A program made the position numbers and the translations under genes. The notes under the pieces were generated by a model. It was not told where the DNA came from. It did no database searches and saw nothing but the letters and a program-made list of their open reading frames with translations. Below, piece after piece: positions 15,912 through 32,518 of a stretch of 62,554 bases of DNA. Position 1 is the first letter of the stretch; the number at the start of each line of letters is the position of its first letter. Source of the DNA: Bacteroidota bacterium (GTDB lineage: Bacteria > Bacteroidota > Bacteroidia > 2-12-FULL-35-15); contig JAHEYB010000014.1 of NCBI GenBank assembly GCA_023251805.1, forward strand, positions 1 to 62,554, in the 5' to 3' direction.

Positions 15912-17738
15912 CTACTTTTTATCTAATTTTGCTTCTATAATATCTAATCTTTTATTCATTTCTGCTGTGTCATCAGCTTCTGTTATCTTTCTTTTTAGTT
16001 CGTCAATTGTGTTTAACGCTGATACATTTTCTATTCTAAAATTTAATGCTTGAATTCCTTTTAGAATAACACCATCCATATCAATTCCTGAGATGGTAAT
16101 ATTATTTTCACCTAAACCAAATGCTTTATAAAAATCTTGTGCCATAGGTCCAATATGACGAATAGCATTTTTTTGCGATTTATAATTCCAGCTTTTTATT
16201 TTTAATGATGCTATTTTTTTTAGCGTTTCATCTGTATCAACATTTTTAAAATTTTCTTTTTTATTTTTATCCGACACACTAGTCCAGCTTCCACTTCCGG
16301 GTGCAACAGAAACACCCATAGTTCTTGCTGAATCGGTATAAAAAATTACACCTCCTGAAGCTCGTGCCATAAATTGATGAGCAATGGTTGCATTTGCAAA
16401 CGAAGAAGAAGAAGCATCGGAATAAACAAAACAACCATTTTTTGCATTGGAAGAACCTGCAAATCCTATTACGGTAGACCAATTTCCTGAAGCGAGACAA
16501 TTTGTGCCCAAAGCCGCTGCTTGTGCCCCTGTGGTTTTATTATTAACACCAATCGCAATGGATGCTGCATTTATATCTACATAATTCCCCTTTCCTATTG
16601 CCACACAGCGTGAAGCAATGCTGGTACAACTATCGCCCAGCGCTATACCATTCCCACCCGGATATGCACCCAAGGCAGTCGCTTTTGATTTTCGTCCCAT
16701 TGCAATTCCATAATCACCGGTAAAACAAGAACTACCTGAAGAAAAAGAACACACTCCTGCCTTTGTATTCATGCCAACAGCACAAGAATAGTATCCAACA
16801 TTTACACTATCCCATTCAGTAGAACCAACATAACCGCTTCTAAAAGAAGCCTTTCCGGGAAACCAAATCATTCTATCTCCTGCTCCCGATTTTGATAGCG
16901 AACCGGAAAACAAAACTCCTGTTGAAAGTATTCCATCTGTCACAGAACTACTCACACTGGCCGAATTTATCGGGTTTCTAAGAAATAAATTGCCATTTGA
17001 TTTTAAACGAACCCGTTCTGTATTATTTGAGCTTACTACAAAATCTTGAGAATCAATCGTACCGATGTAATTTAAACTTGTTCCCAACGCATTTCCAGTT
17101 GTTCGCCATGCAGTAGGCGCACTTGAGAATGCATAAGTTGCAGTATCACTTAAAACTGAATTTAAAGAATTGTAAGCAAAAAGAATAGTATCCGAATCAT
17201 TGTCTATAGCAGGAACCCAAAATGAACCATTGTACTTTAATACTTTATTTATTGAAATACCGGAAAGATTCACATCGTTAAACTCACTTAAACTTACACT
17301 TGACACCGCATTGGATTTTGCCGACTGAAAAGCATAAGGAATAGAAAACAATTGCGTTGCACCCATATCTGTAAAAGCACTTCCACCACTTGCATCTATC
17401 GAAATTTTTAAATAGATATTACTGCCCGACCAATTGATTTGAGAAAACGAACTTACCAATCCTAAACCGGTAGAAGTACCAGTACCCACAACAACATCTG
17501 CTAACCCATAAGAATCAGTAAATAAAACTTTTGTTTCCTGCCATTGCAATGTACCTGTAGCGCTACCTGAATAAAATGAAAAACGCAAATTAACCGATTG
17601 ATTCGGAACTATCAGTCCCAATACATCTCTTATAATTGTTTGGTACTTAAATCCTTGAGGTATTGCCTGAGCATTAACAGACTTATCGAATACAAGTACC
17701 GACAGAAAAACTAAACTATATTTAAAAATAAGTCTCAT
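15912..17738 (-). CDS. Tail-fiber-type surface protein with C-terminal S74 chaperone domain (paralogue)
   Basis: 608 aa from the ATG at 17738; a TTG three bases upstream would add one residue. It shares the whole architecture of the neighbour at 14021: a signal peptide, the PQGFKYQT...YGLADVVVGTG...LFSIPYAF N-terminal domain, a KYNGSFWVPA linker, about 150 residues of head-type repeats (here SSGSSCFTGDYGIAMGRKS and relatives, less regular), then SDKNKKENF, WNYKSQ, HIGPMAQDF and a coiled coil ending in IEAKLDKK. The two differ widely in the repeat part, consistent with duplication and divergence of the exposed shaft. Its ATG overlaps the TGA of the T9SS-sorted protein by one base (TGATG), so the two are translationally coupled. 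Confidence 0.87.
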   Translation of the reverse strand: MRLIFKYSLVFLSVLVFDKSVNAQAIPQGFKYQTIIRDVLGLIVPNQSVNLRFSFYSGSATGTLQWQETKVLFTDSYGLADVVVGTGTSTGLGLVSSFSQINWSGSNIYLKISIDASGGSAFTDMGATQLFSIPYAFQSAKSNAVSSVSLSEFNDVNLSGISINKVLKYNGSFWVPAIDNDSDTILFAYNSLNSVLSDTATYAFSSAPTAWRTTGNALGTSLNYIGTIDSQDFVVSSNNTERVRLKSNGNLFLRNPINSASVSSSVTDGILSTGVLFSGSLSKSGAGDRMIWFPGKASFRSGYVGSTEWDSVNVGYYSCAVGMNTKAGVCSFSSGSSCFTGDYGIAMGRKSKATALGAYPGGNGIALGDSCTSIASRCVAIGKGNYVDINAASIAIGVNNKTTGAQAAALGTNCLASGNWSTVIGFAGSSNAKNGCFVYSDASSSSFANATIAHQFMARASGGVIFYTDSARTMGVSVAPGSGSWTSVSDKNKKENFKNVDTDETLKKIASLKIKSWNYKSQKNAIRHIGPMAQDFYKAFGLGENNITISGIDMDGVILKGIQALNFRIENVSALNTIDELKRKITEADDTAEMNKRLDIIEAKLDKK

Positions 17739-18238
17739 CAAATTTTGTTGACTTTGAATATTTTATTGAACTTATTTTTTTGAGAACCGATTCGAATAAA
17801 ATAGATTCCTGAACTCAATTTTTCTAAATTTAAAATGAAGCTACTTTTTAAGCTTGAATAATTGCTTGTAAAATCAATCGCTTCTTTCTTTCCAAAAATA
17901 TCATACACATCAATAACAACTCCATCGGCTTCTGTCAAATTAAGCTCGAGCGTAAGCTGACTTAAAACAGGATTAGGAAATGCTTTTGCTTCAACAAAAG
18001 GATTTTCAACTACGATTGTGATTAAAGAAAGATCGGGTTGAACAAAGCCTTGTGAAATCATAGATGATCCTGATGTATAAGTATCCGACATTAACTCTCC
18101 AATATTGGATTGCAATTGCAAACTGCCATTATTTCCATAATTTCCTCCTGTGCTAAAAAAAGTTGCTCTTTGCACATACTGAGAATAAGAAAAAGTGCAG
18201 TGTAAAAATAAAAAACTTATGAATAGGTATCTTAACAT
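17738..18238 (-). CDS. Small secreted protein with T9SS type A sorting domain
   Basis: 166 aa: a signal peptide (about 1-20), a short domain with the pattern FSTGGNYGNNGSLQLQSNIGE and ISQGFVQP, then a complete type A sorting domain from about residue 85 (AFPNPVLSQLTLEL, then VYDIFGK, LSSGIYFIRIG, NKIFKVNK). The sorting domain sends proteins through the outer-membrane T9SS translocon, where it is removed and the cargo is often attached to A-LPS or released. Here the cargo is only about 60 residues. The gene leads the operon of two S74 fiber proteins and overlaps the first. A role as an anchor or adaptor for the fibers is my inference. Confidence 0.85.
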   Translation of the reverse strand: MLRYLFISFLFLHCTFSYSQYVQRATFFSTGGNYGNNGSLQLQSNIGELMSDTYTSGSSMISQGFVQPDLSLITIVVENPFVEAKAFPNPVLSQLTLELNLTEADGVVIDVYDIFGKKEAIDFTSNYSSLKSSFILNLEKLSSGIYFIRIGSQKNKFNKIFKVNKI

Positions 18239-18400: not shown

Positions 18401-19420
18401 CTAAACTTTTTTTCGCAAAATATTTTTATTGACCAGATATTTAATCCAATACAAGAATTGGTTCCATTTGATGTTTCCAGAATAATAAAAATAGCTGATT
18501 ACAATTTTAAAGCCTCTATCGGGTAGTAAATAGAAAAATCTTGTCCAACGTTTATCTACTTGTCTTTTAAGCGCCTCTTTAGGAAAATATCCGTTTGCTT
18601 CATTTACCTGCACTATTTTATCCATCCATTTTCGGTAAGCTTTCACGTCTACAGAATCGGTAGTTTTAGTATTGTACTGCGTAGAAATATGCATCTCCAA
18701 TTCCTCTTCTGTAGGAACTATACCAAAACTTTCAATAACCCAACGATACATTTTTTTTCTTCTTTCCATCAACGTATCATCATGACCGGTGGTAATACTA
18801 TTGGCCACTACCCTATACCTATAAAGCACCTCCTGTGTAGTAGCAAAATTTGTCACATCTTTAAGTCTATACCACAAATCATAATCTTCAATATGCAAAT
18901 GCACATCCCTAAAATACATTTTATGTTCTTTTAGAACTGACATTCTTAAAATGCAAGGAGCATGTGCAATGCTTGAACCAAATAAAAAAGTAGCTTTTAT
19001 ATCGTCATTGTTTTCAGGATATTTCCAAATATCTACTTCCCTTTCAAACCTCTCAAGTGCAGAACTATAAACTCCTACATCTGAATTTTTTTCCATAAAA
19101 GAAATCAACTTCTCAAACCTGCCTGGCACCGAAATATCATCGGCATCCATTCTTATCATATATTTTGTTTCAATTAAATCGATGCCAACATTTAATGCTC
19201 CTGAAAGACCCAAGTTCTTCTGATTCTTAACATATCTTATTCTTGCATCCGTATAACTTAGTATTATCTCCTCACTATTATCTTTTGAACAATCATTCAC
19301 AATCAAAAATTCATACTCTTCAAAAGATTGACTCAACACGCTATCCATCGCTTCTTTCAAATACTTCTCAGCATTATAAACCGGCATTAATACTGTAGCC
19401 AATGGTTTTTGTTTTTCCAT
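18401..19420 (-). CDS. Glycosyltransferase family 2 protein
   Basis: 339 aa. A GT-A fold enzyme with ATVLMPVYNAEKYL at the start, LIVNDCSKDNS (nucleotide-binding Asp), and IRMDADDIS near residue 105 as the DxD metal/nucleotide motif, followed by a HAPCILR acceptor segment and IEDYDLWYR. The C-terminal ~100 residues contain a WxxKI block and a basic, aromatic stretch that may dock to the membrane. It resembles the GT2 at 59185 along its whole length, including the TEEELEMH-like C-terminal segment, so the two probably come from one family. It lies 174 bases downstream of the ABC ATPase, so it may be the end of the export operon or separately transcribed. Confidence 0.9.
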   Translation of the reverse strand: MEKQKPLATVLMPVYNAEKYLKEAMDSVLSQSFEEYEFLIVNDCSKDNSEEIILSYTDARIRYVKNQKNLGLSGALNVGIDLIETKYMIRMDADDISVPGRFEKLISFMEKNSDVGVYSSALERFEREVDIWKYPENNDDIKATFLFGSSIAHAPCILRMSVLKEHKMYFRDVHLHIEDYDLWYRLKDVTNFATTQEVLYRYRVVANSITTGHDDTLMERRKKMYRWVIESFGIVPTEEELEMHISTQYNTKTTDSVDVKAYRKWMDKIVQVNEANGYFPKEALKRQVDKRWTRFFYLLPDRGFKIVISYFYYSGNIKWNQFLYWIKYLVNKNILRKKV

Positions 19421-19593
19421 TTTTTTTTATTTTTTTTGCTATTCTTTTAATTCAAAATTACTCAAAATAATTTTCAACCCAATAAAATACTTTTGTGGGA
19501 TTTAGTGATATACAAAAAAATAATGGTGGCGAATCAAATGCGAAATCATCACAGGGAAAGAAAAATGTAATTAAATGTTGTAGAAAAACATTT

Positions 19594-20862
19594 TTATAAC
19601 TGTTTCCATGCGGGAGTTAAATAAACCGAACCTCCCGACTTCAACAACCTTCTTTTCACTAAAGAAGAACCTTCTAATATATTAAATTCCGCACAAAACA
19701 ATAAGTGGTCATGGGCCTCCTGGCTATCTGTACTGGCTATCCAAAAACCTAATTTGTATGTTTCGGGATATAAATGCAGATTTTTAAAAAGAATAGAAAA
19801 TTCCATTTCTCCTTCCACTTTTTCAATAACAAAATCAGAATCAATGTTTTCAATATTCGAAAGAACCAATTCATCGTATCTATAGATATGAATTGCAATA
19901 CTAATGTTTCGCATAGGTTTAAAAGCTTTAACTTTTAATCTTAGCTCCATATCATCCCCAATAACAAAATTATTGCTTAACGTATTATTATTATAAATCT
20001 CCAATCCAACAAAGCGCATCAAGCCTGTTCCCTTTCTATCTTTTAGCTCACTTAAATTATATTTTGGGCCGGTAGTCTCAATAGAATTACTTAAATAACT
20101 TTTAATTGCGTTTTGAATATCTCCATCATAACTCACCATACCATCTTTTAGTAAAAGGCCTCTAGTACATAATTGCGTTAGCGATTGCATATTATGGCTC
20201 ACAAATAAAATTGTTCTGCCTTGTTTGCTCACTTCATTCATTTTGCCCATACATTTGTTTTGAAAAGCAACATCTCCTACAGCTAACACTTCATCTACCA
20301 CTAAGATTTCCGGTTCTAAATGTGCTGCAACTGAGAAAGCAAGACGCACATACATGCCCGATGAATACCTTTTAACCGGTGTATCGATAAATTTCTCCAC
20401 TCCCGAAAAATCAACAATTTCATCAAATTTATTTTTTATTTCCGAGCGCTTCATTCCGAGAATAGCACCATTCAAAAATATATTTTCTCTCCCGGTAAGC
20501 TCAGGGTGAAATCCTGTTCCTACCTCCAAAAGGCTTGCAATTCGTCCTTTTACTTTAAAACTTCCTTCTGTTGGTTTTGTAACTCTTGAAAGAATTTTCA
20601 ATAAAGTAGATTTCCCGGCTCCATTTTTTCCAATAATACCAAGCACTTCTCCTTCATGCACCTTAAATGAAATATCCGTTAGTGCTTGATGATGACTCAT
20701 TAGCTTTTTATTATCATCAACAAAATTTAATTTAGTATTTGGATTTTCTTTACCTCTAACTTTTGCCCACCAGGCATTGATATCACGCGATATTGTTCCA
20801 GTGCCAACTTCACCAAGACGGTAGGATTTACTAACATTTTCTACTTCAATTACTGTTTTCAT
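19594..20862 (-). CDS. Polysaccharide ABC transporter ATP-binding protein with Wzt-type C-terminal domain
   Basis: 422 aa. ATPase domain to about residue 255: Walker A GKNGAGKST (78-86), signature YSSGMYVRLAFS, Walker B LVVDEVLAVGD and switch SHN. The next ~150 residues form a beta-sandwich of the Wzt C-terminal kind, with FVIGDDMELRLKVKA, LYPETYKLGFWI and a closing SVYLTPAW. In O-antigen exporters this domain recognises the modified end of the finished glycan before export. The gene follows the permease by 17 bases and is part of the export operon. The extra domain implies a capped or otherwise marked polymer. The methyltransferases of the left cluster could supply such a mark, which is inference. 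Confidence 0.92.
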   Translation of the reverse strand: MKTVIEVENVSKSYRLGEVGTGTISRDINAWWAKVRGKENPNTKLNFVDDNKKLMSHHQALTDISFKVHEGEVLGIIGKNGAGKSTLLKILSRVTKPTEGSFKVKGRIASLLEVGTGFHPELTGRENIFLNGAILGMKRSEIKNKFDEIVDFSGVEKFIDTPVKRYSSGMYVRLAFSVAAHLEPEILVVDEVLAVGDVAFQNKCMGKMNEVSKQGRTILFVSHNMQSLTQLCTRGLLLKDGMVSYDGDIQNAIKSYLSNSIETTGPKYNLSELKDRKGTGLMRFVGLEIYNNNTLSNNFVIGDDMELRLKVKAFKPMRNISIAIHIYRYDELVLSNIENIDSDFVIEKVEGEMEFSILFKNLHLYPETYKLGFWIASTDSQEAHDHLLFCAEFNILEGSSLVKRRLLKSGGSVYLTPAWKQL

Positions 20863-20879
20863 TTACTATATGCTACATT

Positions 20880-21728
20880 TTACACCGTATCCATAAACGA
20901 TTTTTCAACCTTGTTGAATAGTATTATTCCAATTACTAATACTACAATCATAAACACAAAACTATAAGCTAAATAATACCAGCTGAACTGGCCCACACCG
21001 GTAAAGGAATAACGAAATGTTTCTATAATAGAAGCTAAAGGATTTGCTAATATTATGGTTTTTTGCTTGGGAGACAGTGTAGATAATGGATAAATTATTG
21101 GTGTGGCAAACATTAAAAGTTGAACACCAAAAGCAATCAAAAATCGCAAATCTCGGTACTTAGTTGTTAAAGAAGAAATAATAATTCCCATACCAAGTCC
21201 AATCCCAGCCATTATTAAAATTAAAATTGGAAGAAGAAACACAAAACGATTTGGGTGAATAGTAGGATTGGTATAACAATAATATGAAAGAAAAGATAAG
21301 AAAAACAGTAACTGAATAATGAAGGCAATAAGATTACTGATGATAATCGACAAAGGAACCGTTAATCGAGGAAAATATACTTTTCCAAAAATATGCGCAT
21401 TAGAAATAAACGTGTTTGATGTTTTATTAATACATTCGGAAAAATAATTCCACATGGTTATTCCTGAGAGATAAAACAAAACAGCAGGAACTCCATCTGT
21501 AGATATTTTTGCAATGTTCCCAAATATTATCGTAAAAGTAATGGTAGTAAGTAGTGGCTGAATAATATACCACAAAGGGCCTAAAATAGTTTGCTTGTAT
21601 ACAGAAACAAAATCACGTTTAACAAAAAGAAGAATCAAATCTCGGTATTCCCATAAATCTTTCAAATGTAAATCAAGCCAATGGCTCTTAGGCTTAACTA
21701 TCAGTGTCCATTCTTCATCTTTTTCCAT
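20880..21728 (-). CDS. Polysaccharide ABC transporter permease (Wzm/TagG-like, ABC-2 family)
   Basis: 282 aa with six predicted membrane segments. The cytoplasmic N-terminus with LWEYRDLILLFVKRDFVSVYKQTILGPLWYIIQPL is the standard start of ABC-2 glycan permeases, and the later PIIYPLS and NPLASIIETFRYS segments are also diagnostic. It forms the inner-membrane channel with the Wzt-like ATPase. The gene lies 30 bases after the tyrosine kinase gene and 17 before the ATPase, giving a Wzc-Wzm-Wzt order. Length is normal. No outer-membrane exporter (Wza-like) gene is found in the window. Confidence 0.93.
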   Translation of the reverse strand: MEKDEEWTLIVKPKSHWLDLHLKDLWEYRDLILLFVKRDFVSVYKQTILGPLWYIIQPLLTTITFTIIFGNIAKISTDGVPAVLFYLSGITMWNYFSECINKTSNTFISNAHIFGKVYFPRLTVPLSIIISNLIAFIIQLLFFLSFLSYYCYTNPTIHPNRFVFLLPILILIMAGIGLGMGIIISSLTTKYRDLRFLIAFGVQLLMFATPIIYPLSTLSPKQKTIILANPLASIIETFRYSFTGVGQFSWYYLAYSFVFMIVVLVIGIILFNKVEKSFMDTV

Positions 21729-21758
21729 AATTTATTTTTCAAGTAATAAAATTAGTTT

Positions 21759-24146
21759 CTATTTCTTTTTACTTGAACCATATCCATAGCTATTTCCGTA
21801 TCCGTATCCATAACTATTTCCATAACCATAACCATAGCCATAACCATAATTATAATAATATCTGGAACGATTTCTTTTTACTCCATTTAAAATTAATCCA
21901 AAATTTTTCAATTTATTTGATTCCACTATTTCCTCTGCAATTTTCAAAATGTGTTTCTTCGCAAATTTTGCATTTAGAACAAATAATGAAACATCCACAT
22001 TTTTCATAATCACCAACGCATCTGTGATCAATCCAACCGGAGCAGTGTCCACAATTACATAATCATAATTAGAACGACCATAATCAAAAATTTCTTTCAA
22101 ATGTTTGCTCAATATAATTTCAGAAGCATTTGGAGGAGTGGGGCCAGATAACAAAACTGATAAATTTTCAATTTCGGTTGGTACAATTGATTCTTCAACT
22201 GTAGTCTTACCAATAAGGACAGTACTAACACCATTTAAAGAAGTAAGGTCAAATGCTTTTTGAACTTTCGGTTTGTGAAGATCTAGCTCAACTAACAATA
22301 CTTTTTTTCCGGCCTTAGCAATTATGGTTGCTAAATTAACCGAACAGAAAGTTTTTCCTTCACCCGGATTGTAAGAAGTAATTAAAATGACTTTCGAATT
22401 CGATTCACTCGACATATATTCCAAACTTGTTCGGATAGTACGAAAGCACTCTGTTATTGCCGACTTTGGATCTTTATCAACAATAATATAGTTATCTAAG
22501 GCATCGGCCGATAAAATAACTTCGCCTAATACAGGAAGTTTAGTTAATCTTTTTAACTCATTAATATTTTCTATTGTTGAAAACAATACTGTTCTTAAAA
22601 ACACAACCACTAAACTTAACACTAGTCCGATAACAATAAAATAATAGGAAATTTTTCTTTTGTTCGGACTAATTACACCTATGGAATGTGCTGTTTCAAT
22701 AACACTTGTTTGAGGAAGAATACCGGCACGAGCAATTAATGTGCTGGCTCTTTTCTCCAAAAGATATTCATACATTTTTTCATTAACATCCGCTTTTCTT
22801 TGGATAGTTAATAAATCACGTTGTGTTTTTGGGATAGTTTTAATAATTCTTACATAGTCGTCTATCTGTTTTTCAACATCACTTATTCTTTGTGTTAAAC
22901 CTCTTTTAGAATTAGTGATATAAATCAACATGTTTTTTTTCTGAAGCTCCATCGTTTGGTCCAACTCAGCAATATTTCTGTTCTGCTCTGTTGAATTAAA
23001 CAATATTCCCGTTCTACTCATTTGTTTTGTATACAACTCCCCAATTGCAATTTTTAAGTAATCATCTCCGGGTTCAATATAAAAAGAGGGGGGTAACAAT
23101 TTATCATCTTTGGTTCCATCTAATGCAAGTATATATTTTTCCAGGGCATCTAAAGATTGAATCCATAATTGCAATTGTCGTTTTTTTGCATCAAGATCAA
23201 TCATTTGATTAAAGTATTCTCCCTCTTCTTTGGGCAAATCTAAAATCGCTTTGTTTGATTTGTAGTCCTCCAAATCATCTTCTATTGATTTAAGAACTGA
23301 AGTAACCTCAGCAAGTTGCTTATCAATATTATTTAAGGTATTTTCATTAACTACATATTGGTTTTGAGCAGTGTAATCAATATAAACTTTTGACAATGTA
23401 TCAAGAATAGTTACAGCCCTAGACGATATTTCATCTTCAAGAGTTAGCTCTAAAACGGTTGTATTTTCTAAATTTTCAACTGAAAGTATATTGGTATATT
23501 TATCAACCAGATTATCAATGTTGTGAATTTTTACGAGGTAGTCTATTTCCTTTAGGTTGATTATTGTTTTGTCGTTGACATTGTCATTTTTTATGACTGT
23601 AATTATACCAAAATCCGAATCTATATTTTCAACATCAAAAAACAAGGTTTTTACAAGCTCTTCCTTCCCTTTTTTGTAGGAAATTTGAAACTGTTTATTA
23701 TTTAGAATTTTGAATTTAATATCTTTCTCATACATCCCTGAGCCTAATTGCTTTATTACAAATTCAAAAGGCATTGATTGGTAAACTTCAGTTGTTTTTA
23801 GTCTGCCAACAATAAAATAAGAGACGTCCAGTTTCAGTTTTGCTAGCGCTTTTTTAACAAGGTCATTCGATGTTAAAACTCTTATCTGATTTGTATTATC
23901 TTGATATGGTTGATAATATCCTAAGCCCCTGTTAATTTGAGTCTGATAATCATATGTTTCATCCGATTTTAAAAGGATTTGAGATTTTGCGGCATAAATG
24001 TTAGGAATCTTATAAGTATAAAAATAAGAAAGCACTATGGAAAGTACAACAAACGAAACAATTACATACCAGTTCTTAGCAAATATTCTTAAAAATCCTA
24101 TAAGATCTTCCAATTCAATAATATTGATCTTTTTGTTATCTGACAT
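21759..24146 (-). CDS. Wzc-type polysaccharide co-polymerase/tyrosine autokinase
   Basis: 795 aa. A Wzz-type domain starts after a first membrane helix (about 27-48). A long coiled-coil periplasmic part (about 250-480) has the PKTQRDLLTIQRKADVNEKMY motif seen before the second helix (about 495-518). The cytoplasmic BY-kinase domain has Walker A SYNPGEGKT near 585-593, Walker A' LLVELDLHKP and Walker B YVIVDTAPVG. Residues 759-795 are an almost pure Tyr-Gly tail with 13 tyrosines, the autophosphorylation cluster in an unusual regular form. These proteins set chain length and couple synthesis to outer-membrane export. It is the first gene of the export operon, with a candidate -7 box at 24169-24176. 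Confidence 0.93.
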   Translation of the reverse strand: MSDNKKINIIELEDLIGFLRIFAKNWYVIVSFVVLSIVLSYFYTYKIPNIYAAKSQILLKSDETYDYQTQINRGLGYYQPYQDNTNQIRVLTSNDLVKKALAKLKLDVSYFIVGRLKTTEVYQSMPFEFVIKQLGSGMYEKDIKFKILNNKQFQISYKKGKEELVKTLFFDVENIDSDFGIITVIKNDNVNDKTIINLKEIDYLVKIHNIDNLVDKYTNILSVENLENTTVLELTLEDEISSRAVTILDTLSKVYIDYTAQNQYVVNENTLNNIDKQLAEVTSVLKSIEDDLEDYKSNKAILDLPKEEGEYFNQMIDLDAKKRQLQLWIQSLDALEKYILALDGTKDDKLLPPSFYIEPGDDYLKIAIGELYTKQMSRTGILFNSTEQNRNIAELDQTMELQKKNMLIYITNSKRGLTQRISDVEKQIDDYVRIIKTIPKTQRDLLTIQRKADVNEKMYEYLLEKRASTLIARAGILPQTSVIETAHSIGVISPNKRKISYYFIVIGLVLSLVVVFLRTVLFSTIENINELKRLTKLPVLGEVILSADALDNYIIVDKDPKSAITECFRTIRTSLEYMSSESNSKVILITSYNPGEGKTFCSVNLATIIAKAGKKVLLVELDLHKPKVQKAFDLTSLNGVSTVLIGKTTVEESIVPTEIENLSVLLSGPTPPNASEIILSKHLKEIFDYGRSNYDYVIVDTAPVGLITDALVIMKNVDVSLFVLNAKFAKKHILKIAEEIVESNKLKNFGLILNGVKRNRSRYYYNYGYGYGYGYGNSYGYGYGNSYGYGSSKKK
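21777..21860 (-). repeat. In-frame Tyr-Gly codon repeat in kinase C-terminus
   Basis: A run of TAY-GGN codons encodes Tyr-Gly doublets broken by Asn-Ser. The 6-base unit is imperfectly repeated more than ten times, so replication slippage could change the number of phosphorylatable tyrosines without a frameshift. Confidence 0.8.
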
Positions 24147-24475
24147 AATTTTTCCTTTAATAGGTGCACAAATATAGAAATTAATATCGTAAACTTATTT
24201 TTCGCACATCAACTAAATCAATTTTAAATTTTTTAAATAGAAACTCATGATCCCAACTATTCCATAAAAAAATATAGAACCTTTTTATATTAAAATCCGT
24301 ACACTTAAAAAGTAAGATTTATAAAAATAACCAGAGGCAAACATATTGATTTTAGAGGTAAATGGAAACAAATTGCACATTTTAAAAGAATTTCTTACAT
24401 GAATAAAAAAAAGTGAACTTATTTTATACTCATTCAATTAAAAAAATTAACTTTACAACTTTAAATCATTTCGCC
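24147..24475. other. Divergent intergenic region (329 bases)
   Basis: Very AT-rich spacer between the leftward export operon and the rightward T9SS gene. It holds the minus-strand -7 box at 24169-24176. On the plus strand TAACTTTA at about 24447-24454 matches seven of eight -7 positions and is the best candidate for the T9SS/exosortase transcript. No gene, stable hairpin or repeat was seen. Confidence 0.5.
24169..24176 (-). promoter_or_regulatory. Candidate -7 box for the glycan export operon
   Basis: TATATTTG on the minus strand, a full TANNTTTG match, would start transcription about 16 bases before the kinase ATG at 24146. No TTG is seen at the -33 distance, so only half of the promoter is supported. 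Confidence 0.42.
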
Positions 24476-26902
24476 ATGAAAACACCTACAAAAAATCTAC
24501 TAGCACTTTTTATTCTTACAATAGGGCTTTCGTATAATGCGTATTGTATCAGTTACGTTTCTGCCGGTGCTGGACCTGCAGATTGGGGTGTTGCTGCCTC
24601 TTGGACTCCAGTTGGAATTCCCGGAACAGCCGATGACGTCACAATTTCTGCAGGACATACTATCCAAATTACAGCTTTGCAAAATTGCAATAATTTGACA
24701 GTTGATGGAACCCTTCAGTGGTTGGCGAATGTCAGCGTGATCATGAAAGGTAATTATATCCTTACAGGTAGCGAAAGCGGCTTAGGGACTTTGCAATTTA
24801 ATTCACCGGGAACAACGATAACTACCACAGGAACAACCTCCGCTTCTGTTTATTATTCAGTAAATAATAACAGAACCGTTTCAGCCACTTCCACCGTTAA
24901 TAAGACTAGCACTACTACAAAAATTGGAGCAGGAGTGACATTAATAAATCTTGGAACATATAGAATGGGAGCTTCCGCTACAAGTGCTGGCTCTGTTTTT
25001 ACAAATGGTGCAAATGCTATTTTAATTCTTAAATTTTCAGGATTTATGACTGGCAGAGTTTTTAATGCCAGCGCTGCCGGAAATTTGGTAAGAACACTTT
25101 ACAATACCGGAACTATTCCTGTTGCAGCGTTAGGTTATTATGATTTAAATTTAGCCGGCACTGCAACAGGAACTAAAACGTTATTGGCAAATACTACAGT
25201 TATAAATAATCTGACCATCAATGCTACCAATACTCTTAACTCTAACAATTTCGACTTTACAGTTGGGGGAAATTGGACCAACTCAGGGATATTTACGGCC
25301 AGTGCAGGAAAAACAGTAACTTTTAATGGTACTGCCGCACAATCAGTTTCAAATACTACCGGAACTACTACTTTTAAAGGACTTACAATTAATAATACTG
25401 CTGGAGTTACACTTACTACAGGAACGTATAATTTAGATGAAGTATTAACAGTAAGTAACGGAACCTTTAATACCGGAGGAAGACCATTTACAATGACTTC
25501 AACCGCTGCAGCTACCGCTCGTATTGCCCCTATAGCTGGAACAGGAGCAATTGCAGGAAATTTTACTATACAACGATTTATTACCGCTCGTGATACCACT
25601 TTTGCCGATTTCTCTTCTCCTGTTCAAAGCTCCACATTTGCTGATTGGGCTGCTGAATTACCTGCTATCAGTTATAATTCCTCTCCTCCTGCACAAGAAG
25701 CTTCTGCAGCTACGTATGATGAAAATGCTGATGTTTATGTTCCCATCACCTCATCTGGAACATCTTTAAATGCAGGACAAGGATATGAAATATTTTTGGC
25801 GGGGGACTTTGCTTATGCACCCTTGCCTAATACCACGATGACTACCATTGGAGTTCCAAATCAAGGCGATTTTGATCTTTCCAGCACAGTTTCAAACAAT
25901 GTGCAAGGCTGGAATTTGGTTGGTAACCCTTTTGCATCCAGTGTTTCCTGGTCTAGCATTTACACCGCTTCTGGTGCAGGTGCAAGCGGAATGTACGATT
26001 ATGTGGAAATGTATGATTATACTATTGAAGATTGGAATGGATACACCTCCGCTGACGCCATCGAAATGGGTTCTACCCAAGGTTTTTGGATATATGGATC
26101 TCCTGAAGGAGGAGGAGGGCCAATCACTCTTATAATTCCGGAATCCGCTAAAACCACATCTTCTAATAGCTCTATTAAATCTGCTATTAAACAATCTTAT
26201 TTTACTTTAAAAATGAGTAGCACTTTTTCTCCCAATGCTCACGTTTTCAAAGTTGCTGCTTCTGCTACTTCCTCTGACGGACTTGAGCTTAATGATATTC
26301 CCTTTAGAGCAAGTTTAAATAAAGCTACTCCTGAAATGTATTGTATGATTGACGGAAGAAAAATAAACATCAATAATTTCAATTCATCTAATAACAATTA
26401 CTCCATAACATTAAAAACAAAAGTGGCTTTATCAGGGAAGTATAAAATAGAACCATCTGGTTTTGATTTTATACCTGATTATACTTGCGTAACATTACAG
26501 GATAATTTAACAGGAACAATAGTTGACTTAAAAGATGGAAATGGATATTGCTTTACTATGAACGCAAATGACAATCCTGATAGATTCATTTTACATTTTA
26601 GCAAAGATGGCAACTGCAAAACAGTTACAGCTGCTTCAGTGGCTCCAAGCACTGATTTTGCTAATCAAGTTGAAATATTGCCTACCCAAAATGGAAATGT
26701 ATTAAACTTTAATTTGAGCGAAACTACAAGTACATCTGTTTCTGTTGTGAATGTTCTTGGCCAAACTATTGTGGAGGCAATTTCTCTTGAAGCAAATAAT
26801 CAGTCGATAAACATTAACCTTCCAGAAGGATATAGTGGATTATATATCATTAAGGTAGAATCTGCTAAAGGAAGCATAACAAAAAAGTTTATAAAAAAAT
26901 AA
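24476..26902 (+). CDS. Large T9SS-sorted surface protein with beta-helix-like repeats
   Basis: 808 aa from the ATG at 24476, which begins a good signal peptide (MKTPTKNLLALFILTIGLSYNAYC). A start at 24413 would add 21 residues ahead of it and is unlikely. The N-terminal part starts with the GxW..ASW....P...DDVTI pattern common in this class, then Thr/Asn/Gly-rich repeats likely to form a beta-helix up to ~350. From about residue 360 (NFTIQRFITARDTTFADF) to 715 is a domain shared closely with the protein at 27712. A type A sorting domain ends the protein (VVNVLGQTIVEA, GLYIIKVES, KKFIKK). It is exported through T9SS; ligand unknown. The exosortase substrate gene follows 26 bases later. Confidence 0.88.
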   Translation: MKTPTKNLLALFILTIGLSYNAYCISYVSAGAGPADWGVAASWTPVGIPGTADDVTISAGHTIQITALQNCNNLTVDGTLQWLANVSVIMKGNYILTGSESGLGTLQFNSPGTTITTTGTTSASVYYSVNNNRTVSATSTVNKTSTTTKIGAGVTLINLGTYRMGASATSAGSVFTNGANAILILKFSGFMTGRVFNASAAGNLVRTLYNTGTIPVAALGYYDLNLAGTATGTKTLLANTTVINNLTINATNTLNSNNFDFTVGGNWTNSGIFTASAGKTVTFNGTAAQSVSNTTGTTTFKGLTINNTAGVTLTTGTYNLDEVLTVSNGTFNTGGRPFTMTSTAAATARIAPIAGTGAIAGNFTIQRFITARDTTFADFSSPVQSSTFADWAAELPAISYNSSPPAQEASAATYDENADVYVPITSSGTSLNAGQGYEIFLAGDFAYAPLPNTTMTTIGVPNQGDFDLSSTVSNNVQGWNLVGNPFASSVSWSSIYTASGAGASGMYDYVEMYDYTIEDWNGYTSADAIEMGSTQGFWIYGSPEGGGGPITLIIPESAKTTSSNSSIKSAIKQSYFTLKMSSTFSPNAHVFKVAASATSSDGLELNDIPFRASLNKATPEMYCMIDGRKININNFNSSNNNYSITLKTKVALSGKYKIEPSGFDFIPDYTCVTLQDNLTGTIVDLKDGNGYCFTMNANDNPDRFILHFSKDGNCKTVTAASVAPSTDFANQVEILPTQNGNVLNFNLSETTSTSVSVVNVLGQTIVEAISLEANNQSININLPEGYSGLYIIKVESAKGSITKKFIKK

Positions 26903-26928: not shown

Positions 26929-27171
26929 ATGTCAAAAAATTTTTATAAAGTCGCACTCGTTGTTGTTCTAGTTTTATCACAAGCATTTGTCTCCAATACT
27001 TTTGCAGTTGGTATGGGAATGGGTATGGGAATGGGTATTCCTACTCCTTGTGGAGGACCATTTCCTCCTTGTCCGGTTCCTTTAGACAGTGGTGTAATGT
27101 TGCTTCTATTAGCTGGAGCACTCTACGGAGGCATCAAAATATATAATTCATTAAAAAAGAATCCTGCTTAA
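26929..27171 (+). CDS. Tiny secreted protein with exosortase-type C-terminal signal
   Basis: 80 aa. Residues 1-26 are a signal peptide with a likely NTFA/VG cut. Residues 27-50 are VGMGMGMGMGI followed by PTPCGGPFPPCPV, with two cysteines. PLDSG (51-55) is followed by a hydrophobic helix (about 56-68) and a basic end (KIYNSLKKNPA). This three-part end is the plan of PEP-CTERM and related exosortase signals. The PLDSG box resembles the P-I/L-D-G-G end called PID-CTERM in Bacteroidota (from memory). The exosortase gene is the next gene, 27 bases on. After both cuts only about 25 residues would remain, so the product is effectively a peptide. The surface role is unknown. Confidence 0.8.
   Translation: MSKNFYKVALVVVLVLSQAFVSNTFAVGMGMGMGMGIPTPCGGPFPPCPVPLDSGVMLLLLAGALYGGIKIYNSLKKNPA
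27010..27036 (+). repeat. Met-Gly codon repeat
   Basis: A perfect 12-base unit (GGTATGGGAATG) is repeated two and a quarter times in frame, encoding alternating Gly and Met just after the signal peptide cut. Confidence 0.8.
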
Positions 27172-27186
27172 CAGGATTCTTTTTTA
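27153..27186 (+). terminator. Intrinsic terminator overlapping the stop codon of the small exosortase substrate
   Basis: AAGAATCCTG (27157-27166) pairs perfectly with CAGGATTCTT (27172-27181) around a 5-base loop, and flanking A and T runs lengthen the stem and supply the U-tract. The TAA stop (27169-27171) lies in the loop. The exosortase ATG is 13 bases after the end, so read-through would be needed for co-expression. Confidence 0.85.
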
Positions 27187-27198
27187 TTACCTTTTTTC

Positions 27199-27711
27199 AT
27201 GAGTATTTCCTTTCTAAAAAATCCTGTTACTCGTTTTCTTGTTTTAGTTTTCTCCTTGTTTATCTTATGGTATCTGGTTTATAACCTTTGGCTTCACCCC
27301 GATGAACGACTGGATTTATTTGTTGTAGACATTACCATATCTATGAGCAAAACTGTGCTAGAATTTATGGGATATTCAGTTTATACCGGGGTTGATCGAC
27401 TGATTGGTATTGATGGAGCTTCAGGATTATGGATGGGAGATAACTGTAATGGAATAATTTTATTTAGTCTGTTTGCTTGGTTCATTGTTGCTTACAAAGG
27501 TAAAATTAAATACAAACTCATCTACATACCTCTTGGTGTAATTAGTATTCAATTATTAAATGTGCTTAGAGTTGTTGTTTTGGCAATTTTAGATACACAT
27601 TCACGTACTTGGACAGAATTTAATCATACCTATACCTTTACCATTATTGTGTATGGATACATCTTTTTTTTATGGATGGTTTGGGTAAATAAGTATTCAG
27701 AAAAAGAATAA
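27199..27711 (+). CDS. Exosortase/archaeosortase family transpeptidase (short Bacteroidota type)
   Basis: 170-aa membrane protein with about four to five helices. It has the three residues that define exosortases: Cys83 in GDNCNGIILFSLF, Arg124 in LLNVLRVVVLAIL and His143 in FNHTYTFTIIVYG. Exosortases cut proteins with a motif-helix-basic C-terminus at the inner membrane and pass them on for attachment or export. The proteobacterial EpsH type is larger; this compact size matches the single-domain exosortases of Bacteroidota. The only matching target in the window is the 80-aa protein immediately upstream, which suggests a dedicated one-enzyme, one-substrate pair. A terminator lies between the two genes. 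Its TAA abuts the stop of the convergent T9SS gene with no spacer. Which named Xrt subfamily it belongs to cannot be settled by eye. Confidence 0.88.
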   Translation: MSISFLKNPVTRFLVLVFSLFILWYLVYNLWLHPDERLDLFVVDITISMSKTVLEFMGYSVYTGVDRLIGIDGASGLWMGDNCNGIILFSLFAWFIVAYKGKIKYKLIYIPLGVISIQLLNVLRVVVLAILDTHSRTWTEFNHTYTFTIIVYGYIFFLWMVWVNKYSEKE

Positions 27712-30700
27712 CTACTTTTTAAAGAATTTCTTAACGATTGTTTCTTTTTCAGATTCAATCTTTATGAAATACAATCCTCTATAATCTTCCGGCAAATTAA
27801 GTGTTTCAGTTTGTTTGTCAACAACAAAATGCTGCTTCTCAACAATATTTTGTCCTAATAAATTATGAACAGAAACACTTACAGAAGTTAATTGATTATA
27901 ACTAAAAGTAATCACATTGCCTTCGGGAGTGGACAACACCTCAACAGCATTTTCTTCATCCACTATTGATTCCTGCACTTGTGCTTCTCTACAATTTCCA
28001 TTTTTATTGAAATGCAACACAAATCGTTGTTCATCTTGCATTATTTTCATTTCAAATTCATAAACATTGTTTTCAGATAAATTAATGAATCTATTTCTTA
28101 ATTTATCTTCTAATTGAATGCAAGAATAATCTTTCATAAAATCAAATCCGGAAGCAGAAATTTTATAATTGCCCGAAGTATTTACTTTAACTGAAAGTGG
28201 CGTTGAATAATTTTCATCGATAGCATTAAATGTGTTTAAATTAACTTTTACTCCATCAATGGTTGTGAATAAAGCAGGTGTAGCTTTGTTGGGACTAGCT
28301 CTAAAAGGTAAGTCCATGGCGTCAAAATTATCAGAAGCCATTTCTTTAGCAGCAACTTTAAATGCATGCGAAAAATTAGTTAAATCGCTCGAAATTTTTA
28401 ATGTGAAACAAGATGGAATTTTTGTTTCTGCCTTTATAGAACTGTTTGAAGTAGTAGTTTTAGCTGATTCGGGTACTTGTAAAGTTAATGAAGTAGCACC
28501 AGGTAACCCATAAACCCAAAATCCTTGAGCCGAGCCAATCTCAATTCCATCTGCAGAGGTGTATCCATTCCAATCACCAATTGTATAGTCATACATTTCA
28601 ACAAAATCATACAAACCACTAGCAGCACCGCCTGATGCTGCATAGATGCTAGCCCAAGAAACATTTGAAGCAAAAGGATTTCCAACCAAATTCCAACCTT
28701 GAACATTGTTAGAGATCAAAGCACTCAAATTTTGATTTCCTTGATTTGGAATTCCGATGACATTCATGGTCGTATTCGGAAGAGAGCCATAAGAATAATC
28801 ACCCGCTAAAAACACCTCATACCCTTTTCCCGCATTTAAAGTTGAACCCGAAGATGTTACAGGAGAATACACATCAGCCGTTTCATCATACGTATATGCG
28901 GAAGCGTAGGCAGTGGGTGGAGAATGAATATAACTAATTGCCGGTAATTCATTGTCCCAATCATTTATGGTAGCTGCTTGAACAGTAGATGATAAATCAG
29001 CGTAAGAAGTATCACGAGCAGTAATAAATCGTTGGATAATAAAATTGCCACTCAAAGAAGCGGAAGGCGCAACCTGCCCAATTCTAGCTGTTTTGGAAGC
29101 ATCCGACACCATTGTAAAAGACAATCCGTTTGTATTGAAATTTCCATTTAATGGGTTTATGACAGAATTTAATACATAGGCTCCTGTTAAAAGCTTCACT
29201 CCTCCCGAACTATTGTTCACGTCCAACTGATTAAACGTTGTAGTTCCCGTTCCAGATAATGTTTGAGCAGCACTACCATTAAAAACAATCGCTCCGTTTT
29301 GAGCATTAAAGACTCCATTATTAATCCAATTTCTTTTTATAGAGATAGAAAAATTAGATGCTGAAACATCCAAATTACTGCTTATTGTTAAATCGTTATT
29401 TACAATAATATTTCCGCTTAATATTTTAGTATTACTTCCAGCTGAAATTAAATTGTTGTAGGTAAAAGCGGGAATGAACTGAGAAATTGTGCCATTAAAA
29501 TTAATAGTGCTATTGGTTACTGTATAAATATTAGCCCCTGGTGTGAAACTAGAAGCAATACCCACTATTCCGGCTGCTGGCAATGTTCTGGAACCAGTTG
29601 ACGAGGACGTTAAATTAAAATAATTAAAAGCAGGAATTGTCTGAGCAACTGTACCATTAAAGTTTAATGTACTTCCAGAAATTGTATAGGTATTTGTAAA
29701 AGGAGTAAACACACCTGACACACCAATACTTCCTGAAGAAGCCAAGACCCTTGTTCCTGTGGAAGAAGAAGTTAAATGATTATAATTAAAGGCCGGAATA
29801 GTTTGTGCAACTGTTCCATTAAAATTAATTGTGTTTCCTGTTACAACATAAGTTGTTGTAAGCGATGATGGAGAAAATACGTTTGCTACGCCAACAATTG
29901 CCGCAGGAAAAGTCACCGTTCTAGTTCCATTTGTACTAACAGTTAAGGAACCATAATTTAAAGTGTTCACATTTTGATTTCCTGCTCCTATATAATCAAT
30001 ATTCAAACCCGATAACGTTTTACCTGCAATAGTATATTGTGAAACAAAATCAGGTGTTGCTGCAATTCTTGTAACACGAGCTGTTCCAGTTCCAGTCATT
30101 GTACCGGCACCACTCACCAAAACGCTTGCTGACGGTTCCAATATTGCGCTTGCCCCTATCGTTAAAGTTGTAACAACACTAAAATTAGTGCTGGCTGAAA
30201 CTGAAGCACTCGAGTTGGATATCATTAAATTTCTAAATGCTGTAGTTGTTGTTCCTGCTATCGATTGAGGAATTGTTCCATTCATGGTTACCGTTCCGGT
30301 ACCTGCAACAAATGAGCTGTTATTGGTAAAATTTCCACCTACATTTAAATTTAAATTGTTTGCATCCAGGGTTGTTGATGCAGAAATAAGCACATTTCTG
30401 TTGGCAATCGTAGCAGAAGTCATTGTTTTGGTGCTGCCACCTGAAACGGTAAGATTTGAGTAGCTTCCATCGTTTGGTAAAATCACGTTTTGATTTCCTG
30501 CGCGACTATATATAACTGTATTTCCAACAGCTGAAGCATTAAAAATATTTACTGAAAAATTTGCATTTGTAATTGCTAAATCTACACTACCCGTTGCTCC
30601 TTGAGCCCAACTACCAGTTCCTTTTAAACTTGAAGTTAATTTTAAGTTTGCATTGTTTGTATAAGAACCATTACAAGTGATATCATCAAAAATCAATGCG

Positions 30701-31839
30701 GTGGAGCCCCCTATTGTTTTTGAGCCTCCGGATAATGTCCACACTCCCAGATTGGCATTGAAGGTTCCATTAACAAAAATATTTCCGTTAATTCTATAAC
30801 TTTCCGCTACAACCGAATTAAAAAAACCTCCTGCATTCACTGTGAAATTATTAAAGACTTTTGTTCCTCTTACGTTGTTTATATCTAGTGTACCAGAAAT
30901 AGTAGTGTTCCCCGAAACATTGATTTTGATTCTGCTCAAATCACAAATACCGCTAACCACATTAAAGTCTCCTGCAATATTAAAAGTGGGTGTTGCTCCA
31001 GTAGCTAAAAAATCGCCACCAAACGTATTTAAGGTTCCATTAACAGTATATGTTTCAGCAGAAGAATTATCAAATTTTCCTGTTGCGTTTAAATTAACAT
31101 TGCCAAATGTATTTGCTCCTCCGGAGCTATTATCCCTGAGTGTTCCGCTGATAGAGGTTAATCCTGTTATAGTAATATTAATATTTCCCATTGTGGCTAT
31201 GGCTCCAGCAGGTATTATAAAAGAGCCTGTAACATTTAATATTCCGGAGCTCGACCCGGTTAAGTTTCCTCCATTCATAGTTAGATTTCCCAATACAGTA
31301 TAGGTTTCGGCCACAGTGCTAGTAAAACTTGCACCGGAATTTATAACAAGATTGGAAAACGTTTTGCTTCCTCCTGTATTATTAAAAGAAAGGGTTCCTG
31401 AAAGTGTAGTTGTACCGCTCACAGTTATGGCAACTCCCCCAATAGTACTGGATGCACCAGCCGGCTGCGTAAGCGCACCCGTAACATTAATAATTCCTAC
31501 CGAAGAACCTGATAAAATGGCTCCATTATTTAAAATTAATCCACCAACTCCAATGTTGATGGTAAAAGCTGAAGTCCAATTGGCTGTTCCATTTACAGTG
31601 AGGGAAAGGCAATTTGCTGGATTGCCATTCATTGTAACAGTTTTTCCTGAACAAATAACGACATCATCAGAAGCACCAGGTATTGTAGCTGCTGCCGCTC
31701 CCGAACATGACACTGTTGACCAGGTGGATGCAGTGTTCCAATTACCTGTGACCCTAGTATAAAAAGTGGAAGATTGGCCCTGAAAAGGCAGGAGAATTAA
31801 TACGATAAATAAAGTAAGGTAGCTGCTTCTTTTATTCAT
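27712..31839 (-). CDS. Giant T9SS-sorted surface protein with tandem beta-helix repeats
   Basis: 1375 aa from the ATG at 31839, which opens a typical signal peptide (MNKRSSYLTLFIVLILLPF). A start 25 codons earlier is unlikely. The mature N-terminus has the GNWNTASTWS...PGASDDVVI pattern. About 300 residues of ~75-aa repeats (each near an AETYTVxG motif) follow, then other Ser/Thr/Asn-rich repeats, including a regular 54-aa unit. From NFIIQRFITARD on, it is a close paralogue of the protein at 24476, ending in a type A sorting domain (VHNLLGQNIVEK, GLYFIKIES, KKFFKK). It is likely an extended adhesin or matrix protein delivered by T9SS. Its stop touches the stop of the exosortase gene, and it is read towards it. 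Confidence 0.88.
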   Translation of the reverse strand: MNKRSSYLTLFIVLILLPFQGQSSTFYTRVTGNWNTASTWSTVSCSGAAAATIPGASDDVVICSGKTVTMNGNPANCLSLTVNGTANWTSAFTINIGVGGLILNNGAILSGSSVGIINVTGALTQPAGASSTIGGVAITVSGTTTLSGTLSFNNTGGSKTFSNLVINSGASFTSTVAETYTVLGNLTMNGGNLTGSSSGILNVTGSFIIPAGAIATMGNINITITGLTSISGTLRDNSSGGANTFGNVNLNATGKFDNSSAETYTVNGTLNTFGGDFLATGATPTFNIAGDFNVVSGICDLSRIKINVSGNTTISGTLDINNVRGTKVFNNFTVNAGGFFNSVVAESYRINGNIFVNGTFNANLGVWTLSGGSKTIGGSTALIFDDITCNGSYTNNANLKLTSSLKGTGSWAQGATGSVDLAITNANFSVNIFNASAVGNTVIYSRAGNQNVILPNDGSYSNLTVSGGSTKTMTSATIANRNVLISASTTLDANNLNLNVGGNFTNNSSFVAGTGTVTMNGTIPQSIAGTTTTAFRNLMISNSSASVSASTNFSVVTTLTIGASAILEPSASVLVSGAGTMTGTGTARVTRIAATPDFVSQYTIAGKTLSGLNIDYIGAGNQNVNTLNYGSLTVSTNGTRTVTFPAAIVGVANVFSPSSLTTTYVVTGNTINFNGTVAQTIPAFNYNHLTSSSTGTRVLASSGSIGVSGVFTPFTNTYTISGSTLNFNGTVAQTIPAFNYFNLTSSSTGSRTLPAAGIVGIASSFTPGANIYTVTNSTINFNGTISQFIPAFTYNNLISAGSNTKILSGNIIVNNDLTISSNLDVSASNFSISIKRNWINNGVFNAQNGAIVFNGSAAQTLSGTGTTTFNQLDVNNSSGGVKLLTGAYVLNSVINPLNGNFNTNGLSFTMVSDASKTARIGQVAPSASLSGNFIIQRFITARDTSYADLSSTVQAATINDWDNELPAISYIHSPPTAYASAYTYDETADVYSPVTSSGSTLNAGKGYEVFLAGDYSYGSLPNTTMNVIGIPNQGNQNLSALISNNVQGWNLVGNPFASNVSWASIYAASGGAASGLYDFVEMYDYTIGDWNGYTSADGIEIGSAQGFWVYGLPGATSLTLQVPESAKTTTSNSSIKAETKIPSCFTLKISSDLTNFSHAFKVAAKEMASDNFDAMDLPFRASPNKATPALFTTIDGVKVNLNTFNAIDENYSTPLSVKVNTSGNYKISASGFDFMKDYSCIQLEDKLRNRFINLSENNVYEFEMKIMQDEQRFVLHFNKNGNCREAQVQESIVDEENAVEVLSTPEGNVITFSYNQLTSVSVSVHNLLGQNIVEKQHFVVDKQTETLNLPEDYRGLYFIKIESEKETIVKKFFKK
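29449..29961 (-). repeat. 54-residue (162-base) tandem repeats in the giant T9SS protein
   Basis: Two full units (29674-29835 and 29512-29673) and a partial third (29449-29511) each start [NS]T[IL]NFNGT[VI] and contain IPAFxYxxL and, in the full units, a VFTP-like block. A degenerate fourth lies before them at about 29836-29961. The exact 162-base spacing indicates recent duplication. Confidence 0.8.
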
Positions 31840-32004
31840 AATAATTTTCAAAACAATGTAAAATCTTACATGTGTTAAGAATATGCTAAATTTAGATAAA
31901 AGGTTGCATTGCAAAAAATAAATTAGACTAAATCGACCTTTTTGGCGATTAAATTGAGAGAAAAAAAGGAAATTATAACTTACAGGCTAAAACAAATTTA
32001 GTTG

Positions 32005-32017: not shown

Positions 32018-32518
32018 GTGGAAAATCAAAAAATTAGCTTAAAAAAAATTAGCTTAATTATCGTTACAGCAATAACGGCTGTATTATTGGGCTTTCTGCG
32101 AGACTCCGTTTTTAAATCCATAAATGCTTTGCTCAGAGCTTGGGATTTAGATCAAGACTTCTTCCTTCCAAAATATCTCTCATTTTTGGAAAACTATGAG
32201 TACAATACATTAGTAAATATCAAATGGCTGCTAACTCTGCTTTTTAGCTTTTTATTCCTTTTTTTGTCAATTTTCGCTCTAAAACTCCTATTTAATAGCA
32301 AAAAACATATAAAAATTACCATTTTTACTTATTTTGGAATTATAGGTTTATCAACTATTTTTATCTTAATTGGCCTTGTTTGGCCTGGCCAATCCGAAAA
32401 AATGTATGAATTTGCTCGATTTCTTATGGGAATGGCCCAATCTCCTATTATCCTTATGATACTGATTCCGGCTTTCAAACTTTCTGAAAAAGAAAAAACA
32501 AAATCTTCAAACGAATAA
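32018..32518 (+). CDS. Four-helix membrane protein resembling exosortase-F-associated proteins
   Basis: 166 aa, GTG start. Four hydrophobic segments are seen, at about 11-27, 68-92, 98-122 and 134-154. Between the first two is a hydrophilic loop with an Arg-Asp pair right after helix 1 and a DFFLPKY segment. The last part reads RFLMGMAQSPIILMILIPAF before a basic tail. From memory this plan (charged pair after helix 1, RFL...P..L..LIPAF at the end, ~150 residues) matches the membrane protein found beside exosortase XrtF in Flavobacteria (TIGR04127). It is 4.3 kb from the exosortase here, separated by the giant T9SS gene. The link is tentative; otherwise it is a conserved protein of unknown function. 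Confidence 0.6.
   Translation: MENQKISLKKISLIIVTAITAVLLGFLRDSVFKSINALLRAWDLDQDFFLPKYLSFLENYEYNTLVNIKWLLTLLFSFLFLFLSIFALKLLFNSKKHIKITIFTYFGIIGLSTIFILIGLVWPGQSEKMYEFARFLMGMAQSPIILMILIPAFKLSEKEKTKSSNE

Follow-up and report, generated by a model that had tools for sequence, protein, structure and literature searches.

The stretch of DNA analysed here, called the window in the following, comprises 62,554 nt (JAHEYB010000014.1 of assembly GCA_023251805.1) and originates from a lake bacterium of the Bacteroidota, the genome of which is represented by 2.98 Mb at 80% completeness. On its forward strand, the window contains three consecutive genes, namely a T9SS type A cargo gene (24413-26902), a gene encoding a mini-protein of 80 aa with a PID-CTERM sorting signal (26929-27171) and the gene of an exosortase X of 170 aa (XrtX; 27199-27711). 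They are followed by a second T9SS cargo gene on the reverse strand (27712-31914; 1400 aa; TIGR04183, 39.5 bits), which is convergent with xrtX and has no mini-gene after it, and by a forward-strand gene for a 166-aa homologue of the XrtX-associated membrane protein (32018-32518). Relatives of the second cargo with up to 3021 aa are found at the same position in several genomes of the genus. On the other side, a divergent Wzc-like tyrosine autokinase (21759-24146, reverse strand; TIGR01007, 184.3 bits, cut-off 108) and the two genes of a Wzm/Wzt-type polysaccharide ABC exporter (19594-21728, reverse strand; ABC2_membrane, ABC_tran, Wzt_C) are encoded. The first-pass annotation, which had recognised the reading frames of mini-protein and enzyme at these positions, placed the pair directly after a polysaccharide export operon; such genes do lie nearby (18401-24146), but on the opposite strand, diverging from the pair and separated from it by the T9SS cargo gene. 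Two further reverse-strand genes were observed in this region: one, near the polysaccharide genes, encodes a product of 609 aa (15912-17741) that ends in an endosialidase-chaperone domain (Peptidase_S74) and weakly matches a YadA-like head, the other a product of 166 aa bearing a T9SS tail of type A (17738-18238), a relative of which occurs in 8 of 40 XrtX loci.

The 80-aa mini-protein is composed of a signal-peptide-like start ending in TFA, a Met-Gly run, the segment PTPCGGPFPPCPVPLDSG, a hydrophobic helix and a basic end. The predicted signal peptide of 26 aa (27006 being the last nucleotide of its stretch 26929-27006) was read from the window and genus sequences; by regular expression, a cleavage-like pattern was found in 24 genus mini-proteins, misplaced in two of them (L127 and L128), with the hydrophobic stretch and the TFA visible. 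No Pfam match was obtained for the mini-protein in a scan of the window proteins, but at its C-terminus the PID-CTERM signal, i.e., VPLDSG and the helix (27076-27144, residues 50-72 of 80), passes the cut-off of NF046080 (29.1 vs. 26 bits). Between both signals a predicted mature peptide of approximately 25 residues containing CGGPFPPC would remain (27007-27081), both ends of which are putative; a remainder of this size with two cysteines agrees with what had been predicted earlier. In the genus this peptide reads (G/M)n-P-CGGPFPPC-P, or nearly so, before PLD, and outside the genus the commonest motif preceding the PID signal is CWPPPC. Of 84 distinct mini-proteins encoded at XrtX loci, 80 contain at least two cysteines within the 30 residues before the motif, a span that may take in the end of the signal peptide; here and below, distinct means differing in the last 55-60 residues only. 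Over 24 genus loci the stretch from cysteine to cysteine shows a pN/pS of 0.10 vs. 0.30 for helix and PLD and 0.45 for the tail, values obtained with saturated synonymous sites. It is the most constrained measured part of the mini-gene and is under strong purifying selection, a constraint which recognition by XrtX could alternatively cause. The cysteine pair is not universal, since mini-protein copies away from xrtX in the genomes G089, G199, G239 and G355 do without it. The numbers of cysteines in peptide and cargo are correlated (Spearman 0.55, n=87); a disulfide joining the two was nonetheless rejected, owing to confounding by lineage and to the occurrence of pairs without any cysteine. Likewise, the near-invariant KKNP end was dismissed as a purely sorting feature, because the codons specifying it make up the 5' arm of the stem-loop described below.

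The neighbouring enzyme reaches 179 bits against the cut-off of 170 of NF046081 in the NCBIfam search, while its Pfam score of 24.2 bits is just below the gathering score of 25.7 and its score against the XrtF model (72.4 bits) falls below the cut-off of 90. Together with the sorting signal, this supports the identity of the pair that had been proposed before database searches. The residues C83 (codon 27445-27447), R124 (27568-27570) and H143 (27625-27627), which we take to be the catalytic set of exosortases, had been placed correctly by the first-pass annotation and are invariant in all 40 aligned sequences, the window sequence included. From its family, XrtX would be predicted to cleave the PID-CTERM protein or to act as transpeptidase on it.

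As had been claimed, the pair is one-to-one in its own genome: at the 80% completeness of the assembly, it holds one PID protein and one exosortase over the cut-off. Additional proteins with the same C-terminus are not apparent there, the next match to a tail model built for the genus scoring 15.7 bits vs. 77.7 for the mini-protein. This model, which was built from the very proteins that it finds, yields one strong match per positive genome (67.7-78.7 bits), and the next-best match within the whole genus, of 21 bits, lies in a genome without the system. Among 36 genus genomes, 24 encode one PID protein each (E<=0.01; 20 over the cut-off) and 25 have one XrtX-like match (20 over the cut-off); the same 24 PID genomes have one XrtX, which exceeds the cut-off in 20 and scores 162-169 bits in four. 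Mini-gene and xrtX are adjacent in all 24, with a gap of 19-30 bp. The 25th genome, G028, was rejected as a case of the enzyme without its partner, as its enzyme (L135, 979-1536, reverse strand) is an XrtF (218.1 bits, cut-off 90) in place of XrtX; no PID match was found in that genome.

The distribution of the system was furthermore followed in 396 genomes drawn evenly from the class, with a completeness of 90% or more in every case but the own genome. PID-CTERM proteins were detected at E<=1e-3 in 179 of them (169 over the cut-off) and XrtX-like matches at E<=1e-10 in 228 (107 over the cut-off). Both occur together in 173 genomes, PID alone in 6, the enzyme alone in 55 and neither in 162, so that an XrtX-like match accompanies 173/179 PID genomes vs. 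55/217 others; given so permissive a threshold, members of other exosortase subfamilies must be among the 55 genomes with the enzyme alone. PID without an XrtX-like match at this threshold was seen in G180, G261, G277, G357, G373 and G413 (in part loci L262, L276 and L278). A single PID copy is carried by 146 of the 179 genomes and two to five copies by 33. Among the matches listed, nearly all PID frames are short, with one very long exception, a 973-aa MSEP-CTERM protein of G199 that ends in the PID-CTERM tail (28.9 bits, cut-off 26; frame of 995 aa; L151, 5114-8035, reverse strand). A peptide-sized substrate is therefore usual for the XrtX/PID-CTERM system, and the view of the pair as a special use of the sorting system finds no support; NCBIfam models for it already exist. 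That the enzyme would not occur elsewhere without its partner holds largely: PID-CTERM (E<=1e-3) is present in 100 of the 107 class genomes with XrtX over the cut-off, and five of the remaining seven have a mini-protein, by weaker matches in G023 and G027 and by inspection in G069, G110 and G135; beside the enzymes of G183 and G316, no mini-protein was seen. Among the best 80 of 313 XrtX loci, which were named and of which 23 are genus contigs counted already, the mini-gene directly precedes xrtX in 47 of the 57 loci outside the genus and, on inspection, in a 48th (L207). Inspection revealed no mini-gene in L189, L190 (short upstream), L219, L224 and L239; XrtX loci without a recognisable adjoining mini-gene are L189, L219 (Hymenobacter busanensis), L224, L239, L268 and L269.

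The gene upstream of the pair, which the first-pass annotation had missed, ends 26 bp before the mini-gene. Its product, listed with 829 aa from a GTG, has a likelier start at an ATG 21 codons in and carries a T9SS type A C-terminal domain at residues 757-829 (26681-26899; TIGR04183, 48.3 bits, cut-off 23), by which its secretion through the T9SS and its surface attachment are predicted. Cargo of type A is attached by PorU. Of 23 genus loci that could be tested, 21 have a homologue of this cargo, by BLAST cluster, directly upstream and in the same direction, 23-52 bp away, and in the 42 named loci outside the genus with enough sequence, the next upstream gene is a T9SS cargo in 18 and a divergent Wzc in 13. 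The cargo also shares a region, termed GNPYP and described below, with other T9SS proteins, and the association of such a cargo with the mini-gene can be followed where the mini-gene is separated from xrtX. Where 500 bp or more of upstream sequence is available (8 mini-genes with less were set aside), a GNPYP cargo lies within 300 bp upstream of 46 of 66 distinct unlinked mini-genes, a T9SS tail only in 1 and neither in 19; for the 76 distinct XrtX-linked mini-genes the numbers are 41, 3 and 32, the last including 14 with a divergent Wzc. Multi-copy genomes contribute several rows each to these 66 as well as to the 64 upstream tails, of which 47 match TIGR04183 vs. no more than 3 among the 74 control genes, an upper bound that follows from the absence of this model from the 25 top control families, the smallest of which has 3 members. 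The control consists of 74 of 90 references from a pool of 231 genes of the XrtX neighbourhoods and the window, genes preceding xrtX and the mini-gene being left out and genome-wide and unlinked-locus genes lying outside it. Forty unlinked loci were picked by eye, not randomly, among the PID matches listed (down to E 1.1e-7), and two of these forty (L281 and L292) have XrtX approximately 0.5 kb upstream. In G239 all five copies and in G355 four of five examined copies of the mini-gene stand behind a cargo gene of their own with no XrtX in the stretch. By adjacency, the cargo link is not universal, because 18/76 linked and 19/66 unlinked mini-genes have neither a GNPYP cargo nor a T9SS tail nor a divergent Wzc upstream. 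Mini-gene and xrtX are thus not the closed two-gene unit they had been taken for, the mini-gene being mostly tied to a T9SS cargo gene even away from the exosortase.

The cargos share approximately 435-480 residues before the T9SS tail, in which the N-P of GWNLVGNPYP is invariant, while their other domains differ (ice-binding, FG-GAP, DUF4394, PATR or PKD in the seven scanned, and a weak G8 in the window). In the window, the GNPYP region of the upstream cargo (approximately 435 aa; 25352-26656) is covered by no NCBIfam or Pfam family; AlphaFold2 yields a confident model (mean pLDDT 91.1, pTM 0.88), for which structure comparison found no clear relative among solved structures. The second cargo likewise contains the region (280.3 bits). 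Within the genus, the presence of the region coincides fully with that of PID and XrtX, as all 24 PID/XrtX genomes have it and the 12 others do not; this profile is uncorrected for ancestry, and six of the 12 negative genomes are only 75-87% complete. In two of the 24 (G001 and G023), no cargo gene precedes the mini-gene and the region lies on other contigs. The GNPYP model leans towards PID-linked cargos, because it was built from them. Absence of the T9SS as cause of the missing region was ruled out for five of six sampled negative genomes (of the 12), which do contain T9SS cargos, 20 of 21 candidate tails being confirmed; in the sixth, G025, no T9SS tail was found in the 140 kb sampled. Eight searched genomes with multiple PID proteins all have at least two GNPYP matches, sometimes more than PID copies, and GNPYP proteins without a mini-gene exist, such as the second cargo of the window or those of G089 with 10 GNPYP matches vs. 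5 PID; one peptide may therefore serve several cargos.

Two further elements accompany the pair. The membrane protein encoded in the window is a homologue only of the XrtX-associated family, as its 66.9 bits miss the cut-off of 75 of NF046082; it is separated from xrtX by the second cargo gene and also shows a weak match to the model of the XrtF-associated protein, with 20.4 bits vs. a cut-off of 35. Members of NF046082, of which 7 of 22 pass the cut-off in the genus, are found in 22 of the 24 PID/XrtX genomes vs. 0 of the 12 others (Fisher p 7e-8, uncorrected for ancestry). In the genus the gene is often remote from xrtX, i.e., on another contig or 54 kb away; in the 57 named loci outside the genus, as judged by our own model, it is directly downstream of xrtX in 52. 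The second element is a terminator-like stem-loop of 15 pairs over the stop codon of the mini-gene (27152-27186), the stem of which is present in 24/24 genus loci. Its folding energy amounts to -12.7 to -22.9 kcal/mol in 23 genus loci and -5.5 in one, compared to -2.4 to -5.8 for shuffled sequences, and its arms covary in the window as well as in L115 and L117; among 14 class loci it is absent from most and clear in few. A terminator by the criterion of a T-run after the stem is recognised in only 4/24 genus and 0/14 class loci, because the T-run pairs with an A-run, so that the stem itself was relied on. The four terminator-like sites counted in the scan that gave the 15-pair stem-loop are not above shuffles (2.3, sd 1.4). 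By its form, the stem-loop resembles an intrinsic terminator, which would reduce the expression of xrtX compared to that of the mini-gene.

Taken as a whole, we consider it rather probable that the locus is a member of the XrtX/PID-CTERM system in which the substrate is a micropeptide and the functional partner a T9SS surface protein. The mini-protein would be exported by Sec and lose its signal peptide, with its helix seated in the inner membrane and the segment rich in Pro and Gly, with its two cysteines, lying in the periplasm. XrtX, probably assisted by the associated membrane protein, would then cut at or near the PLD motif, and the peptide of approximately 25 residues would be released or moved to an acceptor. 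The peptide may reach the outer surface and serve the co-expressed T9SS cargo there, most likely by docking with or anchoring the GNPYP region, while the enzyme would be held at a lower level than its substrate by the intervening stem-loop. A stronger form of this reading, in which XrtX fixes the micropeptide to an envelope carrier as an obligate docking or anchoring partner of the GNPYP T9SS proteins, is put forward tentatively, as we rate it below even; tag and adhesin would be split over two genes, perhaps because one protein C-terminus can hold only one signal.

Other roles of the micropeptide are conceivable. It might belong to the exopolysaccharide, XrtX linking it to a glycan or lipid of the Wzc and ABC exporter machinery with the T9SS cargo merely as a frequent neighbour, which we regard as unlikely. 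Exosortases are known beside exopolysaccharide genes in the accessible part of PMC1569441, 23 of 40 XrtX loci have a Wzc-like gene no further than approximately 11 kb away, which in 22 of them is upstream and divergent, and those 14 of the 76 linked mini-genes that have a divergent Wzc instead of a cargo next upstream fit a polysaccharide role; among the 66 unlinked mini-genes, however, a divergent Wzc takes this place in none and a GNPYP cargo in 46, and all five copies of G239 and four of five examined in G355 follow separate cargos with no XrtX in the stretch. The self-standing surface peptide favoured by the first-pass annotation, i.e., a metal-binding tag or pilin-like subunit that is served by a dedicated exosortase and lacks other partners, would suit the prevalence of cysteines in XrtX-locus mini-proteins and the purifying selection between them, yet it appears quite improbable given that one kind of cargo accompanies the mini-gene beside and away from xrtX, that the GNPYP cargo region has the identical genus profile and that many unlinked mini-peptides are devoid of cysteine.

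The mini-protein could also regulate XrtX, or form a small membrane subunit of it, instead of being its substrate, as its gene adjoins xrtX in every positive genus genome; against this, which we judge the most improbable of these roles, speak the mini-genes located apart from xrtX, of which a genome can have as many as five, and the tail shared with the MSEP-CTERM protein of G199, as expected of a sorting tag.

Enzyme, signal and associated membrane protein are already named in NCBIfam (NF046081, NF046080, NF046082), and the window enzyme and signal exceed the curated cut-offs; as far as the accessible records go, the matches of these models exclude the T9SS cargo, the cysteine motif and the stem-loop of the locus. 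Dedicated sorting systems with one enzyme and one adjacent target are described in the accessible text of PMC3237569. The XrtX target resembles them by its adjacency in single-target genomes, lies apart in many multi-target ones, and differs by its peptide size and by standing, when apart, mostly behind a T9SS cargo gene. XrtF and its associated protein are needed for surface colonisation in Flavobacterium johnsoniae according to the accessible part of PMC10936215, where the screen also yielded T9SS genes; that system is likewise a Bacteroidota exosortase with an adjacent associated protein, and the window enzyme belongs to another subfamily. T9SS type A cargo, to which the upstream gene corresponds by its tail, is treated in PMC7468200, where exosortase and T9SS are compared as analogous systems and paired genes are not described in the part accessible. 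MYXO-CTERM proteins, as portrayed in the accessible text of PMC11980579, have a similar tripartite tail, in which a cysteine close to the cleavage site is conserved, but myxosortase is a protease of another family with typically dozens of substrates per genome. Our literature search, with subscription papers mostly outside its scope, retrieved no publication on PID-CTERM, XrtX-associated or exosortase X and, in the portions of the literature accessible to it, none on exosortase genes paired with T9SS cargo; nor did it bring up experimental work on the catalogued system to which the locus belongs. What is new is the three-way link of an exosortase, a micropeptide and a GNPYP-type T9SS cargo.

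XrtF is the only genetically studied Bacteroidota exosortase that was found, and the respective reports, in their accessible parts, give its targets as still unknown (PMC10936215; PMC12188702). With XrtX, a candidate exosortase substrate is at hand that is evident, very small and linked to a specific T9SS cargo as its partner, and the role of an exosortase product can therefore be tested directly. Moreover, two sorting systems that are usually treated as parallel may meet on one surface protein.
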